Assembly (NCBI GenBank): GCA_020353135.1
Contig: CP070688.1
Coordinates: 4,170,492-4,192,058, forward strand
DNA length: 21,567 nt
DNA from: Chloroflexota bacterium
GTDB lineage: Bacteria > Chloroflexota > Anaerolineae > Promineifilales > Promineifilaceae
Reading direction: 5' to 3'
A program made the position numbers and the translations under genes. Within the stretch, counting starts at the first letter, position 1. Every line of letters starts with the position of its first letter. The notes under the pieces were generated by a model, which was given only the letters and a program-made list of their open reading frames with translations, ran no database searches and was not told where the DNA came from. Below, piece after piece: positions 6,840 through 17,451 of this stretch.

Positions 6840-7265
6840 ATGAGCAAGGATTTTGAGATTATCGCCGACAAGATATCGAGCCAGGACAAAGGAATTGAGC
6901 TACTTGAGAGGCTGGCCGACGTTGGAGGTCCAGGCGCTGTCTTCGGCGCACCGGTCGAGAGTGGAGAATACACGGTAATCACCGCCTCTGAAGCGCGCGT
7001 CGGCCTGGTTTATGGCTATGGCGGCGGAGGGGGTACCGATTCCAGTGACGGCGACGATGCCGAGTCCGGTTCCTCAGGCTTTGGCGGTGGCGGAGGAGGA
7101 GGCGGAGCGGCCGTGGCCAGACCCGTGGCTATCATCGAGATCGGTCCCAATGGAGCGCGTGTCGAGCCGATAATCGATCCAACCAAGATCGCCCTGGCTT
7201 TCTTCACTACTTTGCTCAGCATCTTCACGATGGGCGCTAAAATGCGTCGCGCGCTAAGGCGATGA
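6840..7265 (+). CDS. YtfJ/GerW-family (spore protein YtfJ-like) membrane-anchored protein
   Basis: A 141-aa protein with the architecture of the YtfJ/GerW family. It begins with an N-terminal helix and a GAVFGAPVESGEYTVIT strand pair. ARVGLVYGYGGGGG and a Ser/Asp/Gly-rich linker with a run of eight glycines follow (about 60-88). The ending is RPVAIIEIGPNGARVEPI, then a hydrophobic helix (about 118-135) and a basic tail MRRALRR. In Bacillus this family is linked to spores, yet members occur in many non-sporulating bacteria where their role is not known. AAGGAG 7 nt before the ATG makes the start firm. It is the second gene of a two-gene operon. The C-terminal membrane helix is not something I associate with the Bacillus form. 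Confidence 0.8.
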   Translation: MSKDFEIIADKISSQDKGIELLERLADVGGPGAVFGAPVESGEYTVITASEARVGLVYGYGGGGGTDSSDGDDAESGSSGFGGGGGGGGAAVARPVAIIEIGPNGARVEPIIDPTKIALAFFTTLLSIFTMGAKMRRALRR

Positions 7266-7277
7266 GCTGAACTCTGG

Positions 7278-8741
7278 CTACTGGCGTCCGTAAGGGTACC
7301 AGAACTCCTTCGGCGTGTCGTCAAAATCCCAGTGCACGTGCTTCGTCTCAAGAAAGCTCTCAAGGCCTTCTTCGCCTAATTCTCGGGCATTTCCGCTCAT
7401 TTTCATGCCGCCAAAGGGGCCGCCATAATTGTCGGTCAGTGGATCATTGATCCAGACCGTACCGGCTCTCACTTCCTCGAAGAAGCGCTTGGCAAAGTTC
7501 GCGTCGTTCGTCCGGAGGCACGCCCCAAGTCCATAGGCGCTGTCATTGACCAGACGAATCGCTTCGTCGAAGTCGCGGTAGGCCATGATTGGGATCGTTG
7601 GGCCGAAGGTCTCGTCGCGCATGCAAATCATGCTGTGGTCCACGTTGGTCAACACGGTTGGCTCGTAGTAGAAGCCACGCGAGAATCCGTTCGGTCGCCG
7701 GCCGCCCGTCAGGATCTTGGCCCCCCGCTCCACCGCATTGGCCATGTGATTCTCGACTTTCTGCCGATATTTAGGATCGGCCATCGGCCCCAGATCCGTA
7801 TCAGATTCGATACCAGGGCCAAGCTTTAGATCGGTCACAAATTCGGCCATCGCTGAAGCGAAGGGTTTTAGCATCTGCTCCTGCACATAAACGCGTTCAG
7901 TTGACGTGCAGACCTGGCCCGTATTTATGAGGGCCGCATACGAAATGGCTTCGACGGCCGTCTCAATGTCGGCGTCTGGGGCCACCACAAAGGCGTCCTT
8001 GCCGCCCAGTTCCAGGTGAGTCCGCTTCATACTGTCGGCCGCAATATGGGCGATGCGCTGGCCGACCGCCGTCGAACCTGTAAAGGCAATGACCGGGACC
8101 TCGGGGTGTCTGACCAACGCCTCCCCAGCTCGCGCCCCGCCAGTCACGACATTGAAAACACCGGCCGGGAGATGATCAAAGGCCAGTTCGGCCAGCAGTA
8201 GTGTTGCCAGCGGTGTTTGCTCGGCCGGTTTGACGATCACAGTGTTGCCGGCCGCAAGTGCTGGAGCTACTTTCCAGATCATGAGCAGCAACGGGTAGTT
8301 GAAGGGGATGATGCAAGCCACGACACCATATGGCTCCTTCATCACAAAATTGAATTGGCTGCGTTCGGCGGGCGCAAGCAGCCGGCCGCGATAAGTGCGG
8401 GCCATCTCGGCGTAGTAGTCTAGCGTTCCGATCACCCACTCAACTTCCTCTTCGTTCTCGGGCAGCGGTTTACCCTCTTCCAGGGTTAACAGCCGCGCCA
8501 CTTCATCGGAATTTTCACGTATTTTGCGGGCAGCTTCGTGAAGCATTTCGGCCCGTTCCAGGCCCGTTATCCACCGCCACTCATCAAATGCGAGCTTCGC
8601 CGTATCGACTGCCCGTCCTGCGTCCACCTCGTCGGCGTACGGAACTTCATCCAGAACGTCCTCCGTTGCTGGATCCAATATCGCGGTAACCTCGCCGCTG
8701 TTACCCTCGACCCAGTTTCCACCTATGTACATCTTCCTCAT
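7278..8741 (-). CDS. aldehyde dehydrogenase family protein, NAD(P)+-dependent
   Basis: A 487-aa enzyme of the aldehyde dehydrogenase superfamily, oxidising an aldehyde to its carboxylate with NAD(P)+. Key residues are all in place: oxyanion Asn148 (IPFNYP), cofactor-binding Lys171 (VIVKPAEQTP), FTGSTAVGQ at 220-228, general base Glu244 (LELGGKD) and the catalytic nucleophile Cys278 (NTGQVCTS). Length is normal for the family. The overall look is that of betaine-aldehyde or aminobutyraldehyde dehydrogenases, but substrate cannot be read from sequence alone. Start ATG 8741 has GAGGTG 5 nt upstream. It is divergent from lon and convergent with the YtfJ-like pair, so it is probably transcribed alone. 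Confidence 0.95.
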   Translation of the reverse strand: MRKMYIGGNWVEGNSGEVTAILDPATEDVLDEVPYADEVDAGRAVDTAKLAFDEWRWITGLERAEMLHEAARKIRENSDEVARLLTLEEGKPLPENEEEVEWVIGTLDYYAEMARTYRGRLLAPAERSQFNFVMKEPYGVVACIIPFNYPLLLMIWKVAPALAAGNTVIVKPAEQTPLATLLLAELAFDHLPAGVFNVVTGGARAGEALVRHPEVPVIAFTGSTAVGQRIAHIAADSMKRTHLELGGKDAFVVAPDADIETAVEAISYAALINTGQVCTSTERVYVQEQMLKPFASAMAEFVTDLKLGPGIESDTDLGPMADPKYRQKVENHMANAVERGAKILTGGRRPNGFSRGFYYEPTVLTNVDHSMICMRDETFGPTIPIMAYRDFDEAIRLVNDSAYGLGACLRTNDANFAKRFFEEVRAGTVWINDPLTDNYGGPFGGMKMSGNARELGEEGLESFLETKHVHWDFDDTPKEFWYPYGRQ

Positions 8742-12368: not shown

Positions 12369-13688
12369 ATGTCAGGCGCAAATGTTACCATGGCTCGTCG
12401 AGCAAATCTACCGCGGCGGCTTCTGCTTCTGTTGACCGCCCGCACCTATCGAGCGGCCGCCTTCGTCGAAGCGGCCGAGCGCCTTGGCATCGAAGTGATT
12501 AAGGCTATTAGCATGCACCGCCATCTGGCGGAATATTGGAATTATCCCCTTGGGCTTCAATACGATGATCCGGCCGGCTGTGTGCGAAGTATCGTCGAGT
12601 TCGCGGCCGAAACGCCTCTAGGCGCCATCATTGCCGTTGACGACAGCGGCAGCTTGGTAGCGGCCGAGGCCAGCAAGGCCCTTGGACTCGCCCACAATTC
12701 GCCCGAATCAGCGGCCGCTGCCAGAGACAAACACATCATGCGCAGGATGCTCCGTCGTGCCGGAGTACCTTCGCCGGAATCCGAGCTATTTCATTTTGAC
12801 GAGTCGATTGACGCCGAACGCCTGGCAGATATGGCGGCCGATATTGACTACCCTTGTGTCATTAAACCTCTTAACCTTAACGGCAGTCGAGGTGTCATGC
12901 GGGTTGACTCGACGGAGCAGTTCGTGAACGCGGCCTCCCGCCTAAAGCGTCTCCTGCAGGCCGAGCAAGCGGGCGACACTGCTTCTGCCTTTTTGTTCGA
13001 ACGGTTCATTCCTGGCTTCGAAGTGGCCGTCGAAGGCATGCTCCTCGACGGAAATCTTAAGATCTTGGCCCTGTTTGACAAGCCGGATCCACTGGACGGT
13101 CCATTCTTTGAGGAAACGATCTACGTTACGCCATCCAGGCTGCCAGCCAAAATCCAACAGTCAATCTTTGAGACCACAGTTGAAGCATCGGCAGCGCTCG
13201 GACTTCGGGAGGGTCCGGTCCATGCCGAATTGCGGATCAACGACGCCGGACCGTGGATTATCGAGCTCGCCGGTCGCTCCATCGGTGGGCTCTGCTCAAA
13301 AACGCTGCGATTTGGCGCCGGGGTGTCGCTGGAGGAGATGATCGTCCGCCAGGCCTTCGGAATGGATGTCGCGTCCTTGGAGCGTGAAGCAACGGCCCGG
13401 GGCGTCATGATGATCCCTATCCCCAGTGCGGGGTTGCTGAAGAGCATCAAGGGATGTGAAACGGCCGCCTCTTTGTCCCATATTGAGAGCGTCGAGATCA
13501 CGGCCCAGTTGAATCAGCGATTAATGCCCCTGCCGGAGGGTGATAGTTACCTCGGCTTCATCTTCGCCAAAGGTCCCTCGCCTGAAGCTGTTGAAGCGGC
13601 CCTGCGAAACGCGCACGCTGCACTCTCATTCGAAATAGCTCCCGAATTACCGCTGGTTCAGCGGGACTTCGAAATGGCGCCCGGTTGA
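12369..13688 (+). CDS. ATP-grasp domain protein, L-amino-acid-ligase-like
   Basis: A 439-aa ATP-grasp ligase, an enzyme type that joins a carboxylate to an amine or similar nucleophile via an acylphosphate. The N-terminal preATP-grasp (Rossmann-like) region is at about 17-105. The ATP-grasp core is at about 110-335 with IKPLNLNGSRGV (K166), LFERFIPGFEVAVEG, and the Mg2+ ligands E287 (HAELR) and E299 in IIELAGRSIGG (R303). The last 100 residues match the position of the C-terminal domain of L-amino-acid ligases. ELAGR in place of the EINPR of carboxylases favours that clade. Substrates cannot be deduced. Start is ATG 12369 or ATG 12390; neither has a good ribosome site, and the upstream promoter makes a leaderless start at 12369 possible. 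It precedes the 258-aa unknown on the same strand, which has its own promoter. Confidence 0.85.
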   Translation: MSGANVTMARRANLPRRLLLLLTARTYRAAAFVEAAERLGIEVIKAISMHRHLAEYWNYPLGLQYDDPAGCVRSIVEFAAETPLGAIIAVDDSGSLVAAEASKALGLAHNSPESAAAARDKHIMRRMLRRAGVPSPESELFHFDESIDAERLADMAADIDYPCVIKPLNLNGSRGVMRVDSTEQFVNAASRLKRLLQAEQAGDTASAFLFERFIPGFEVAVEGMLLDGNLKILALFDKPDPLDGPFFEETIYVTPSRLPAKIQQSIFETTVEASAALGLREGPVHAELRINDAGPWIIELAGRSIGGLCSKTLRFGAGVSLEEMIVRQAFGMDVASLEREATARGVMMIPIPSAGLLKSIKGCETAASLSHIESVEITAQLNQRLMPLPEGDSYLGFIFAKGPSPEAVEAALRNAHAALSFEIAPELPLVQRDFEMAPG

Positions 13689-13751
13689 CCCTCTCGCTCT
13701 GATCAAGCGTGGGTTGATGCGCGTTTGCTATGTCGTGCGCCCGGGCAAAGA

Positions 13752-13760
13752 TGGTATAAT
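13752..13760 (+). promoter_or_regulatory. consensus extended -10 promoter for the 258-aa gene
   Basis: TGG-TATAAT is a perfect extended -10. It lies 64 bases after the ATP-grasp stop and 104 before the next ATG, implying a leader near 95 nt. No classical -35 is visible 17 nt upstream. I see no strong secondary structure or riboswitch match in the leader. Confidence 0.6.
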
Positions 13761-13863
13761 GAAGGTTCCGAAGATTGAATATCACCAGTGAATTATTGAG
13801 TAGACGGCTACCGACAATGCCGCCTATGCTCATGTCAACATACTTAGGAGAACGCTAAAAGAA

Positions 13864-14640
13864 ATGACCGTCCATTTATATGTATCTTTACTCCCGGAGG
13901 CTTTGATCGCCTCTATGATATCGCCGGAGGAGTTTGGCTCTTATTATGCTGTCGGCAGCGCCCGAAAACTACACAGTCAGGCAATATTTCTGGAGTTAGA
14001 TCCTTCGTTCCGCCACGACTTCTTCCCAATTGCAGAGGGTGTGAACCGCTGCGTACCTCACGTCGACGGAGAGCCCAAGAAGTCAGTGTACATTTCCACC
14101 TATCGGGTCCTCGAGCACATACCGCTGAGCGCGGTTCAAAAGCTGTATCTCGTCACCGGATATGGAGAGACGCTGGGGCTTGAAAGAAGCTACGATCTTC
14201 CTCCTGATAGCAGAGACTTTCACCAGTACCAGGAGATTGCGCCTGTTCAGCCGTTGGTCGTCAGCACACTGGGACCGGTGGCATTCTATGAGTTCATCAC
14301 TCAGGATCCCAGCAGCATGATTCACTTGCCGGCTATAGCCTTTGCCGATCTCCGCTTGGGCGCTCTTGCTCGCGACCCTGAATTCGGTGCAGTGGGCGAA
14401 TTACCATACAACTATATACCGCACCTGCGCGAGTGCCTGCTCGAACTAAAGGACAGTGAAAAGACCATCACCAGCAAGATGGTGGATCGCGTCCATCCGG
14501 TCGAGTTCCCCTATCGGATGATCAATTCCGGCATCTACGTTGGAAACACCGAAGAATTGGCTTTCTACCCCCTTCCGTCCCGAGAAGAACTACGCGGTAA
14601 ATACTATCGCTGGTGGAGGTCGGCCAACCTTATCCCCTAA
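13864..14640 (+). CDS. conserved-looking protein of unknown function (258 aa)
   Basis: A soluble 258-aa protein with no signal peptide, membrane segment or motif that I can assign. It has features of a well-folded enzyme-like protein: FGSYYAVGSARKLHSQAIF, LELDPSFRHDFFPIAEG, VYISTYRVLEHIPLSAVQ, LPYNYIPHLRECLLELKD, VDRVHPVEFPYRMINSG and a C-terminal KYYRWWRSANLIP. The ATG at 13864 is followed by uninterrupted, sensible protein; GGAG lies 13 nt upstream, farther than usual, and no nearer in-frame start exists. It has its own consensus promoter. It is convergent with the selenoprotein radical SAM gene, and the two stop codons overlap by two bases. That tight arrangement suggests the pair has been kept together, but no function can be stated. 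Confidence 0.8.
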   Translation: MTVHLYVSLLPEALIASMISPEEFGSYYAVGSARKLHSQAIFLELDPSFRHDFFPIAEGVNRCVPHVDGEPKKSVYISTYRVLEHIPLSAVQKLYLVTGYGETLGLERSYDLPPDSRDFHQYQEIAPVQPLVVSTLGPVAFYEFITQDPSSMIHLPAIAFADLRLGALARDPEFGAVGELPYNYIPHLRECLLELKDSEKTITSKMVDRVHPVEFPYRMINSGIYVGNTEELAFYPLPSREELRGKYYRWWRSANLIP

Positions 14641-16076
14641 GTCCCCAGCCGATCAACCTGATCGGCAGTGGGCTCAGCTCAGCAGAACCAATCTTCCGTC
14701 AACCGAGGCGGCGCGGCCGGAGTCACTGCCGGCTCAATCGTCTGGGGCAGCACCTTTCCAGCTGCCTCGTACGCCAGCCGTTCCGCTTCAGCAAACAGAT
14801 CGAGGGGATCGCGACTACCGTCACGTTCCACAAGCGCTGCGATCGCTCGTTGCAACGCATCCATTCGCGGATCGTCGTGCTGCCAGCGGTAGCCGAAGCC
14901 TTCTCTGTCCAGCGTTCCTAACCATTGATCCCGGTCATCATGCTCGAGTAAAGCGCTGCCCGGCGGAACGAGCAGCCGAATTGAGAGCTGAACGGCGGCA
15001 ACGTGCTGGATCAAGCCCTGGGACGAAATCCAATCCAGCATGTGCAGGTAATCGTCTAAGGAAGTCCAGGGTGTGAACGGCACCCACGTAGCCTGAACCG
15101 GTAGAGCGGCTTCGTCCAGGATCTCCAACGCCTGATTCATGTTAGCCAACGTATGCCCTTTGTGCAAACGGGCCAGAACCCTGTCGCTGGTTGACTCAAA
15201 GGCCGAAATCACAAAGGCAGCCCCAAGATCCTTCAGTTCGCTCATGATTGGCCGGTTCTCAATGATGTGCTCCACCTTGGTGGTGAAGTCAAAGGTCAAC
15301 GATGGATGGTCGCGATGTAGCAAGCGCGCTATCTTCAGCGCGTGGCCCGGGCCATTCAGAAAATCAGGGTCGCCAAAGGTTACGTGCTGGGCGCCGCTTT
15401 CTACTTGTTGCCTGATGTCCTCCAGAACCGTCTCCGCCGAAATCACGAAGAACCGGCCGCCATAGACGGGTACAACTGGGCAATGGCGACAAAGATGGAG
15501 ACAACCCCTGCTGCTCTCGGTATAGCCGGCCGCCAACTGGCGGCCGTTCAACACGAGATGCGCATACTGAGACAAATGGGGCAGACTCGAGCGATCGGGC
15601 AGCGGAACGCGAGTGCGCTGCAGGTAAGGTTGGACGTCGCTCCTTTCCGTCAACACGCCCGACGCCGTCGACATCGACTGACCTCGCTCCAGCGAAGTGG
15701 CCAGGCGGACTAGCGGCTGCTCAAATTCGCCGCCGATAACTGAGTCTGCGACGGGACGCCTACCGGAGGTTGGCTCGGTCAGCAACAGATCGCGATTCAT
15801 CCAGGCGTAGGAACCATAGAAGCAGATATGGGCTTCCGAATTCAGGCTTCTAACCTGCCTAGCAACAGAAACCGCCAGCCGCAAAGCCGTGTGCATAGGC
15901 GTCGAGATGGCCACAAGCGTCGAATGGGCCACAGACGATTCAGGGAACTTCTGGATCGCCAAATCGAACGCTTCAACATTGAAGCCTGCCTGGCGCAGAG
16001 CGGCCAATGGAGAGGCCAGGTTAAGCGACTGCTGTCCCTGCTCGTAGCAAGAGAGCAAGACTATATTCATGAGCAT
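14637..16076 (-). CDS. CUAEP-tail B12-binding-type radical SAM selenoprotein
   Basis: A radical S-adenosylmethionine enzyme of 479 residues when the in-frame TGA at 14679-14681 is read as selenocysteine (residue 466). The N-terminal part (about 1-130) looks like a B12-binding-type Rossmann domain (SPLAALRQAGFNVEAFDLA). The [4Fe-4S] motif CLHLCRHC has C192, C196 and C199; TFGDPDFLN and FVISAFESTSD are typical later strands. The end reads DWFC-U-AEP, then ten more residues to TAG. This matches the family known by its CUAEP/CCAEP tail, in which Sec or Cys occupies the U position. ATG 16076 (or 16070) begins the natural domain; a GTG at 16106 is also in frame, and none has a good ribosome site, so coupling to the yggX stop 30 nt upstream is likely. 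The reaction is unknown. A conventional call would stop at the TGA. Confidence 0.9.
14644..14672 (-). promoter_or_regulatory. bacterial SECIS-like hairpin
   Basis: On the mRNA strand the order is CCCA, a 2-nt bulge CU, GCCGAUCA, loop GGU, UGAUCGGC, UGGG: a 12-bp stem with all pairs Watson-Crick. The loop starts 20 nt after the UGA, and a G occupies the first loop position, as in the SECIS of E. coli formate dehydrogenase (apical GGUC). Neither strand has a T-tract after the stem, so it does not look like an intrinsic terminator. In known bacterial selenoproteins this element is bound by SelB to deliver Sec-tRNA. Confidence 0.85.
14679..14681 (-). other. recoded UGA (selenocysteine codon)
   Basis: The in-frame TGA sits between TGC (Cys) and GCT GAG CCC (Ala-Glu-Pro), giving C-U-A-E-P. 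The frame stays open for 13 more sense codons to TAG at 14637-14639. With the adjacent hairpin this is best read as selenocysteine insertion. The selenium-specific factors (selA, selB, selC, selD) are not in this window. Confidence 0.88.
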
Positions 16077-16106
16077 GGTATCAGACTGTCGGCCGGGCCA
16101 CTCCAC

Positions 16107-16436
16107 TTATTTCTGCGGTGGAGCCGGCGCCCCTTTACTCGCTGGACTGGGAACGCCTTTTCCACCTTGACCAGGCGGGACCCAATCGTCGGGCATCTGC
16201 GCTCCCTCGCCGAAAAAGAATTCCTCCATCTGCTCATTCAGGAATTCTTGGGCCCGAGGATCGGCCATGTTTAGACCGTAGTGATTGATTAAGATGACCA
16301 CCTGCTCTTTCCACAGATTCCAGCCATCGGCTGAGACATTATCGTAAATTCGCTGCCCCAGGTCTCCGGCTACCGGTGGTTTCTCCAGGCCAGGCAGTTC
16401 TCTACCCAATTTCACACATTTGACCATTCTGGTCAT
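16107..16436 (-). CDS. yggX: probable Fe(2+)-trafficking protein, YggX family
   Basis: A 109-aa protein of the YggX family, small proteins linked to iron handling and protection of Fe-S clusters from oxidation. Cys7 (MTRMVKCV) is at the same position as the functionally important Cys7 of E. coli YggX. The rest follows the family: LPGLEKPPVAGDLGQRIYDN, GWNLWKEQVVILINHYGLN and LNEQMEEFFFGEG. GAGGTG lies 5 nt before ATG 16436. The usual length is about 90; the extra 20 or so residues at the C-terminus are Gly/Pro/Ser-rich (GQGGKGVPSPASK) and probably disordered. It is the first gene of a transcription unit with the radical SAM selenoprotein, whose Fe-S cluster it could serve. That partnership is inferred from position. 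Confidence 0.9.
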   Translation of the reverse strand: MTRMVKCVKLGRELPGLEKPPVAGDLGQRIYDNVSADGWNLWKEQVVILINHYGLNMADPRAQEFLNEQMEEFFFGEGAQMPDDWVPPGQGGKGVPSPASKGAPAPPQK

Positions 16437-16467
16437 TATTCACCTCTTCAAATTTCCGGGCTACGAC

Positions 16468-16477
16468 TATAATACCA
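16468..16477. promoter_or_regulatory. overlapping divergent -10 elements (yggX operon / formyltransferase)
   Basis: The plus strand reads TATAAT (16468-16473). The minus strand reads TGG-TATTAT, an extended -10 (16469-16477). They share five bases, so the two polymerases cannot bind together. Start points would give leaders of roughly 25 nt (yggX) and 40 nt (formyltransferase). Confidence 0.5.
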
Positions 16478-16518
16478 TTCATTCAACTGTCAGGCACAAT
16501 GCGCTCATTATTTATCAT

Positions 16519-17451
16519 ATGGCAAATAGACCAAGCGTAGTATTCTTCGGGACAACTAACGAGTTATCGCTGACAGCCCTTGAAACGCTGGTTGTCAGCG
16601 ATGTGATGATCGCGGCCGTCTTTGTGACCGCTGATACTGTCTCCACAGACCCCGATTCGTCACTTGAACTTCTGCAGCCGGCTAAGCTTGCAGGCGAATT
16701 ACCTCTGGTCAACCCATTCTTCGAGCCAAATCTCTTGCATACTGCCTGGTCGGCCGAAATTCCTGTATATGGCGTTAAGAGCGCCCATGCGCCCGAACTG
16801 GCTGAACTTCTCGACACGCTCCGGCCCGACGCCGCCTGCGTGGCTTGCTTTCCCTGGAAATTACCCGTGGCTCTCCTCTCGGTCCCTCCGCTGGGATTCC
16901 TTAACGTCCACCCTTCACTGTTGCCATATTACCGTGGACCCGCGCCCCTATTCTGGCTTTTTCAGAGAGCTGACCTAACGAAGCGGGGCGTATCGGTCCA
17001 TCTTATGGACGCCGGACTCGACACTGGCCCCTTGCTGCGCCGACAGCCACTGCAATTCCCCGATGGCTTGGGCCAACTCGACGTCGAGCGCGCCTGCGGC
17101 GCTCTGGGAGGGCAGCTGCTGGTTCAAGCTCTTGAGAAACTGGCGGCCGGAGACAAGGGGCTTGCCCAGCCAGCTGACGGTAGCTACTATCCCTGGCCCG
17201 AACCGGTCGACTACGCACTTGATACGGCCTGGTCAGCCAGGCAAGCCTTTAATTTCATGCGGGCTACGAACGGTGAAGCGGCGACCTACCCTGTGCGCGA
17301 CATGGATCTCACCTTGATTGACGCCCTAGACTGTATAGAGCAAGGACGTCTATCAGCGCCTCTGGAGGTTGGCGGCCGCGTCGCTCTCATCCAATTCTCA
17401 ACTGGGATACTCAAGGCTAAGATAGCCCGACCCTCATCCCGGCGCGTCTGA
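16519..17451 (+). CDS. formyltransferase-family protein (methionyl-tRNA formyltransferase-like)
   Basis: A 310-aa enzyme of the formyltransferase family, which moves a formyl group from 10-formyltetrahydrofolate to an amine. The catalytic triad is clear: N129 and H131 in NVHPSLLPYYRGPAP and D168 in MDAGLDTGPLL. A smaller C-terminal domain follows (about 215-310), as in Fmt. The N-terminus (VVFFGTTNELSLTALETL) is diverged from the usual FMGTPxFAVPxLxxL of initiator-tRNA formyltransferase. It may therefore be a true Fmt of a divergent lineage or a sugar/small-molecule formyltransferase. ATG 16519 fits the family start; there is no clear ribosome site. It is divergent from yggX and shares overlapping promoter bases with it. 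Confidence 0.88.
   Translation: MANRPSVVFFGTTNELSLTALETLVVSDVMIAAVFVTADTVSTDPDSSLELLQPAKLAGELPLVNPFFEPNLLHTAWSAEIPVYGVKSAHAPELAELLDTLRPDAACVACFPWKLPVALLSVPPLGFLNVHPSLLPYYRGPAPLFWLFQRADLTKRGVSVHLMDAGLDTGPLLRRQPLQFPDGLGQLDVERACGALGGQLLVQALEKLAAGDKGLAQPADGSYYPWPEPVDYALDTAWSARQAFNFMRATNGEAATYPVRDMDLTLIDALDCIEQGRLSAPLEVGGRVALIQFSTGILKAKIARPSSRRV

Follow-up and report, generated by a model that had tools for sequence, protein, structure and literature searches.

A probable selenocysteine residue in the C-terminal tail of a CUAEP/CCAEP-tail radical SAM protein from a Chloroflexota bacterium, and its kinship with ArsL

The stretch of DNA analysed here, which we call the window, comprises 21,567 nucleotides of contig CP070688.1 (positions 4,170,492 to 4,192,058; assembly GCA_020353135.1) from a Chloroflexota bacterium. 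Its minus strand carries, at 14637..16106, a gene for a radical S-adenosylmethionine (SAM) protein with a predicted tail of the C-U-A-E-P type, where U is selenocysteine (Sec). The gene may start at GTG 16106 or at ATG 16076 or 16070; counted from 16106, the product has 489 amino acids. The CX3CX2C motif of radical SAM enzymes (C202, C206 and C209; 15480..15503, minus strand) is invariant, and the domain matches PF04055 with an E-value of 1.3e-10. On the minus strand the gene ends ACG GAA GAT TGG TTC TGC TGA GCT GAG CCC, then ACT GCC GAT CAG GTT GAT CGG CTG GGG ACT TAG, so that translation through the TGA gives TEDWFC-U-AEPTADQVDRLGT. The Cys codon TGC (14682..14684) encodes residue 475, the TGA (14679..14681) would encode Sec at residue 476, and the codons GCT GAG CCC (A-E-P; 14678-14670) follow directly. 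The post-TGA tail AEPTADQVDRLGT occupies 14640..14678, and a TAG at 14639-14637 closes the read-through frame. The C-U-A-E-P codons at 14684-14670, and the TAG that begins 42 bases after the TGA begins, are thus as the initial annotation gave them. Within the tail lies a hairpin that resembles a Sec insertion sequence (SECIS; 14649..14665, minus strand), with a stem formed by 14665-14660 and 14654-14649 and a loop, AGGUU, at 14659-14655.

Judged by its sequence, the read-through protein is a full-length member of the family NF040546, “CUAEP/CCAEP-tail radical SAM (seleno)protein”: it scores 656.9 bits against a cut-off of 500 and covers positions 1-467 of the 468 in the profile. The family already carries an NCBI name, to which the window protein adds a member. 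The second-best NCBIfam match is ArsL (NF040542; 304.1 bits), and a Pfam scan of the read-through protein found the radical SAM domain only. A Cys codon followed by a stop and A-E-P occurs once across all six frames of the window. The profile match spans the TGA, and the same codons stand at the same column in relatives; hence, a chance origin is very unlikely, which upholds the earlier suggestion that the match to the CUAEP/CCAEP tail goes beyond coincidence. The genetic code is seemingly not reassigned, because TGA ends 7 of the 18 other open reading frames taken as genes in the window and is internal in none of them. We conclude that the gene very probably encodes a selenoprotein. The UGA at 14681-14679 would be decoded as Sec by the route that uses SelB and the Sec tRNA (tRNA-Sec), and the hairpin 13 nt downstream of the UGA would direct the decoding.

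Stored proteins tell little of this. Of 7997 candidates scored in a protein search, 7987 matched. Among the best 120 of the 7987, 119 end in ...WFC, as expected if annotation cuts the protein at the TGA; the sole exception, P0019, continues with CCAEPTATQIDRI. P0002, the database copy of the window protein, has 463 amino acids, corresponds to the start at 16070 and stops at the Cys, and the RefSeq coding sequence of Thermomicrobium roseum likewise terminates at the TGA. Read through, the T. roseum protein would have 502 residues. These records bear out the expectation that standard annotation would cut the protein after the Cys. Stored protein ends alone do not reveal the next codon; the DNA of other loci does.

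For that DNA, we used loci from one phylum (that of genome G003), in which NF040546 scores above cut-off in 93 of 400 genomes. Loci were taken from 80 of the 99 genomes that match at an E-value of 1e-60 or better. None of the matches in the 19 genomes left out (G003 among them, represented by locus L003) has an internal TGA, and Cys forms are therefore under-counted. Of 83 tails located (those from the 80 genomes, L002, L003 and the window), 53 have TGA at the column and 30 have Cys. In the order of G147, the family matches in 25 of 56 genomes; with the loci of G445, G416 and G404 left out, this order added 20 further loci, comprising ten CU, five UC, four UU and one C-U-S-E-P tail. Overall, [C/U][C/U]AEP stands in frame at 103 of 104 loci. 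The one exception, L134 (G415), has C-U-S-E-P in place of C-U-A-E-P. Thus, the column holds Cys or in-frame TGA in homologues, and the downstream AEP is conserved, as the initial annotation had asked of a genuine Sec codon. Since most tails were located by a motif search in the family's reading frame, the evidential weight lies in the scarcity of loci without the motif. With L134 and L001 dropped from the counts (L001 has CCAEP, in a tail that our script missed), the 102 counted tails are 63 CU, 30 CC, five UC and four UU; L070 and L083, at contig ends, were additionally dropped from the hairpin counts.

In an alignment of 50 family proteins, whose rows were preselected by the AEP tail, the invariant columns include C202, C206, C209, P467, E471, W473, A477, E478 and P479. 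Positions 475-476 are always Cys or Sec, and Q483 is nearly invariant. On a quick tree built without the tails, the CU state requires 13 changes, nine of them forced by well supported branches.

A different account of the tail is that the TGA is an ordinary stop, that the protein ends at the Cys and that the downstream codons are kept for a regulatory RNA or for the convergent gene. The database records that terminate at the Cys fit this account, as does the convergent gene itself (13864-14640), which shares 4 bases with the end of the frame. However, Cys-form relatives read through CCAEP (30/102 loci), AEP lies in the coding frame in both the Cys and the Sec forms, and the convergent gene is present in only one of 101 other loci. 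We consider an ordinary stop very improbable.

Several tails have features of their own. At L061 (tail at 7369), TAG comes directly after U-A-E-P-A; the hairpin lies beyond the stop, and AEP is still kept. Six Cys-form loci that form a clade (L046, L047, L048, L050, L051 and L055) have a long tail that bears, close to its end, another pair of adjacent Cys, as in SSSCCGVGG and SSGCCSVGT. Genome G185 carries two equal-scoring family copies (C2:30641-32038 and C35:110839-112236). A separate pattern census gave 58 matches in 57 of 396 genomes, 15 of them in genomes already matched and 43 read as new loci. Among these 43, L145, L150 and L193 are not family members, L193 having an apparent UC tail; at L202, the match is confined to the tail.

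The hairpin offers further evidence. Folding of the window's tail as RNA yields a stem-loop with a z-score of -2.95. Bacterial SECIS elements are hairpins directly downstream of the TGA with a G early in the apical loop, and the window's hairpin has this placement and this G. We examined 59 distinct CU tails in a gapless alignment, taking six pairs between columns 17-22 and 28-33 counted from the TGA. Of 354 cells, 87.9% are paired. Covariation is 0.491, as against 0.209 +- 0.020 in 500 shuffles and a maximum of 0.194 in slid versions, and 61 cells are changed on both sides, as against 22.3 +- 3.5 in shuffles. In 29 Cys tails, 47.7% of cells are paired (up to 41.4% when slid) and covariation is 0.217, as against 0.168 in shuffles and up to 0.218 when slid. 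The hairpin therefore covaries in CU tails and hardly in CC tails. All 61 U tails have a G at loop column 24; among 30 Cys tails, 17 do.

We also searched with a covariance model (R2) trained on 38 tails, excluding the window and all loci from the order of G147. The window's tail scores 34.9 bits (E-value 1.8e-7 over 52 sources). The T. roseum tail, which has the TGA, the codons for AEP and a hairpin of the form GGACCC...GGGUCC, scores 40.6 bits; UU tails score 28.9-35.9 bits and UC tails 17.6-25 bits. The model has a second match in the window, at 13298-13276 on the minus strand (20.7 bits), which lies antisense within the ATP-grasp gene and was taken as chance. Among 31 Cys-form loci scanned, L046, L047, L048, L050 and L051 retain tail scores of 21.6-33.3 bits. 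We read these remnants, found in five of the six members of that clade (L055 is without one), as apparent leftovers of a recent replacement of Sec by Cys.

The machinery for Sec is common in family-bearing genomes. SelA was found in 77 of 80 and a tRNA-Sec match of at least 59 bits in 76 of 80; weaker tRNA-Sec matches, which resemble other tRNAs, occur in all 80. By form, SelA is present in 50 of 52 U-form and 27 of 28 Cys-form genomes, and tRNA-Sec (at the same threshold) in 48 of 52 and 28 of 28, respectively. The U-form genome G220 is without both. In the order of G147, 21 of 25 genomes have SelA and 22 of 25 have tRNA-Sec, and G412 is without both. The window's closest syntenic relative, locus L129 in genome G446, comes from a genome with SelA (E-value 1.3e-167) and tRNA-Sec (72.3 bits). 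The presence of Sec genes was rejected as a way to tell the Sec form from the Cys form, given SelA in 27 of 28 Cys-form genomes. SelB was rejected as a marker: it is above cut-off in 307 of 400 genomes, and at an E-value of 1e-40 it matches 11 of 14 control genomes, two of them above cut-off.

Some of these results weigh against selenocysteine. Two of the five covariation measures for CU tails do not rise above the shuffles: the number of pairs with change on both sides is four, a value reached in 486 of 500 shuffles, and the number of further pair types is 15, reached in 122 of 500. At gathering thresholds, Rfam has no match in the window. The scores of the UC tails are weak on their own, because the unrelated place in the window (20.7 bits) falls within their range. 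Finally, among 80 genomes of the phylum that lack the family, 60 also have SelA (77/80 versus 60/80, Fisher p 0.0002); with this high base rate, and with SelA in nearly all Cys-form genomes, its presence alone is not diagnostic.

Could the TGA be read as some other residue, such as Trp or Arg, with no selenium involved? We know of no selenium measurement, and this counts for such a reading. However, Cys is the codon that replaces TGA at the column (in a search whose pattern admitted TGA or Cys only), the hairpin covaries in tails with the TGA and hardly in those without, TGA terminates other genes in the window, and most U-form genomes have both SelA and tRNA-Sec. Read-through with another residue is extremely improbable.

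The Sec reading extends to tails in which the first position of the pair also changes. Where the window has the Cys codon of residue 475, UC and UU relatives have TGA. In four loci (L137, L138, L141 and L144), the tail is UUAEP, encoded by TGA TGA; in five (L136, L139, L140, L142 and L143), it is UCAEP, encoded by TGA TGC or TGA TGT. In all nine, the hairpin is at the same place. One UU and one UC protein score 631 and 639.5 bits, respectively, above the NF040546 cut-off. On the quick tree, UC and UU form one clade (Shimodaira-Hasegawa-like approximate likelihood ratio 95) with UC nested inside UU, and this nesting suggests that tails evolved along the path CU to UU to UC. A literature search for tandem or adjacent selenocysteines returned, among the matches listed, titles that were off topic, and we do not claim novelty for UU pairs.

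The genes around the radical SAM gene suggest a biosynthetic setting. Directly upstream on the minus strand (16107..16436) is a YggX-type Fe(2+)-trafficking protein (PF04362, E-value 1.5e-35). Divergent from it on the plus strand is a formyltransferase-like gene (PF00551, E-value 2.3e-19), listed as the open reading frame 16420..17451, with the true start probably further in; its score is below the Fmt cut-off (93.9 versus 201.5 bits). Downstream, convergent with the radical SAM gene, is a plus-strand gene for a protein of 258 amino acids (13864..14640), whose last bases (14637-14640) are those shared with the Sec-tail frame, and beyond it is an ATP-grasp ligase with a LAL_C2 domain (12369..13688, plus strand; PF13535, E-value 3.9e-33; PF18603, E-value 7.5e-14). 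The cluster in the window thus runs formyltransferase, YggX, CUAEP, 258-amino-acid gene, ATP-grasp. The 258-amino-acid protein has no Pfam or NCBIfam match at an E-value of 0.001. The one other locus with a similar gene is L129 (76% identity), and membership of this gene in the set is doubtful.

We counted neighbours by tblastn at 101 other loci, within flanks that mostly extend up to 6 kb per side, many of them shortened by contig ends. YggX-like genes were found at 60, formyltransferase-like genes at 56 and ATP-grasp-like genes at 42, with all three together at 26. The YggX count depends on the method (53/83 in one count, 32/102 by greedy gene picking, 60/101 by tblastn). At L086, L089, L092 and L094, the order is permuted to CUAEP, ATP-grasp, YggX, formyltransferase. 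That the recurrent four genes (radical SAM, YggX, formyltransferase and ATP-grasp) stay together despite the permuted order suggests that they share a function. Between the window and L129, identity is 82% for YggX, 76% for the 258-amino-acid gene, 63% for a methyltransferase, 59% for ATP-grasp and 53% for the radical SAM protein. Across 12369-16436, the radical SAM and ATP-grasp genes are thus far more diverged than those for YggX and the 258-amino-acid protein. In T. roseum, a pyridoxal phosphate-dependent aminotransferase (L187:5509-6720) adjoins the family gene, and its relatives occur in 9 of 102 loci, the best eight being L042, L044, L049, L054, L059, L060, L062 and L066. Elsewhere in the window (6840-7265, plus strand), there is a protein rich in glycine whose match to Spore_YtfJ is weak and falls short of the Pfam cut-off.

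What might a Cys-Sec pair do in such an enzyme? By sequence comparison, ArsL, the radical SAM enzyme of arsinothricin synthesis, is the nearest sister family of the window protein. In the available text of the published account, cells that express arsL convert As(III) to hydroxyarsinothricin (PMC8552651). The same text counts only three conserved Cys and, as far as it is available, does not discuss a terminal Cys pair. Across eight family members and three ArsL proteins, the invariant Cys are those of CX3CX2C and the terminal pair only. We searched 72,556 plasmid records by tblastn and found 17 with a match. One, from T. roseum DSM 5159, is 53% identical and annotated as NF040546; the other 16 are RCCLKC-tail or ArsL proteins with 32.2-36.5% identity. 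A Klebsiella pneumoniae plasmid (NZ_CP028479.1, 104207-105427) carries an RCCLKC-tail, ArsL-type radical SAM gene. In all three plasmid stretches examined (Priestia, Alicyclobacillus and Pantoea), an ATP-grasp gene is near ArsL. It is a distant homologue of the window's ATP-grasp (21-24% identity, E-values from 8e-16 to 1e-20), a likeness that is weak by itself because ATP-grasp is a large superfamily.

We propose, tentatively, that the product is a radical SAM enzyme with a flexible C-terminal tail whose Cys-Sec pair may keep the substrate, or a soft element, in the active site during the transfer of a group from SAM, which in ArsL is the 3-amino-3-carboxypropyl group. The neighbouring ATP-grasp ligase and formyltransferase would then process the product, and YggX may serve the iron-sulfur cluster. 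This is plausible, though short of probable. The fuller picture is doubtful, if possible: a selenoenzyme at the core of an undescribed four-gene pathway, with Cys-Sec capture for an ArsL-like transfer and a clade that passed from CU through UU to UC with one hairpin serving two UGAs.

The case for ArsL-like chemistry is weakened by the following. The window protein's ArsL score (304.1 bits) is below that family's cut-off of 450. MAFFT aligned the terminal pairs of the ArsL and CUAEP proteins across a long gap. The family has no arsenic genes nearby: of ten queries taken from ArsL neighbourhoods, none hit more than two of 102 loci, and those hits were weak. None of these queries found arsM, arsR or an arsenic transporter in the window. 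An arsenic substrate, considered on the basis of the neighbourhood, is thus not supported. At 27 of 101 loci, none of the three partners is present within the stretch covered, and all nine UC/UU loci are among these. In the AlphaFold2 model (mean predicted local distance difference test score, pLDDT, 92.5; predicted template modelling score 0.91), the pLDDT falls to 67 for residues 471-480 and 38 for residues 481-489; with the tail placed at such low confidence, the model does not establish a contact between tail and active site. Separately, we searched 200 genomes from the order of G002 for true ArsL and obtained 13 matches, none above the ArsL cut-off, and the 12 of these that were read (L175-L186) are all CCAEP proteins.

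The fold of the N-terminal part is also compatible with cobalamin enzymes, which weighs against the transfer that we propose. PF02310, the B12-binding domain, matches 38 of 50 family members, and the PDB neighbours found by Foldseek after the best match are OxsB, MgmA and TsrM, with TokK and CysS also included. Accordingly, the protein might be a cobalamin-dependent radical SAM enzyme, a methylase or similar, in which case its relation to ArsL would be uninformative about the reaction. We regard this as rather unlikely. The window protein itself has no PF02310 match at an E-value of 0.001, no corrinoid gene was found among the neighbouring proteins scanned (part of the window's genes), and the best solved match, AprD4 (PDB 6fd2; E-value 1.1e-20, TM scores 0.66 and 0.71), is a dehydratase that works without cobalamin.

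An alternative function for the Cys-Sec pair, in a protein that is still a selenoprotein, is in redox: as a selenenylsulfide, the pair would relay electrons or a thiol substrate and would not bind an element. We consider this quite possible. Cys and Sec are interchangeable at the two positions (CU, UC, UU and CC), as they could be in a redox pair; YggX, which belongs to a family with the name “oxidative damage protection protein”, adjoins; and the available text of one survey assigns known selenoproteins mostly to redox or antioxidant defence (PMC9312934). In contrast, a comparable terminal pair is found in ArsL, whose reported reaction creates a carbon-arsenic bond; the recurrent partners (ATP-grasp and formyltransferase) look biosynthetic; and the accessible part of a 2026 review on the selenoproteins of prokaryotes raises metal binding as a possible role of Sec in some others (PMC13188914). 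The link to ArsL supplies a candidate reaction for assay, and the four genes that recur together supply a pathway to seek. The UU tails, with one hairpin each, would be a natural test of the reach of a SECIS element. There is also a practical consequence: 119 of the best 120 stored copies lack both the pair's second residue and the tail, so proteins made from stored records would lack a possibly key part.

Although NF040546 is named by NCBI, we found it described in no paper in the literature searched, where neither “CUAEP” nor “CCAEP” was found; “CUAEP” and “NF040546” are both absent from the accessible text of the 2026 review (PMC13188914). The family name covers CU and CC only, whereas UU and UC tails also occur among the members identified here. 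The initial annotation had called Sec in a radical SAM enzyme rare. This holds in tempered form, since the family was already named and two other radical SAM selenoprotein families, TIGR04167 (rSAM_SeCys; PMC9312934, PMC13188914) and TrsS (NF045646; PMC13188914), are tabulated in the available text of the reviews. Both resemble the window protein in being radical SAM proteins with Sec. However, the motif of TIGR04167 is GxxU, unlike CUAEP, the available text states no motif for TrsS, and both are absent from the window protein's NCBIfam matches.

AprD4, a radical SAM 1,2-diol dehydratase, is the closest solved fold, yet it shares 17% identity with the window protein and catalyses a different reaction, and we know of no Cys-Sec tail in it. 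Three ArsL proteins are 33-35% identical to the window protein, and CX3CX2C is common to both. CUAEP proteins have an additional stretch ahead of the tail relative to ArsL. The RCCLKC end of ArsL is not found in the window protein; only its CC pair is matched, by Cys-Sec.

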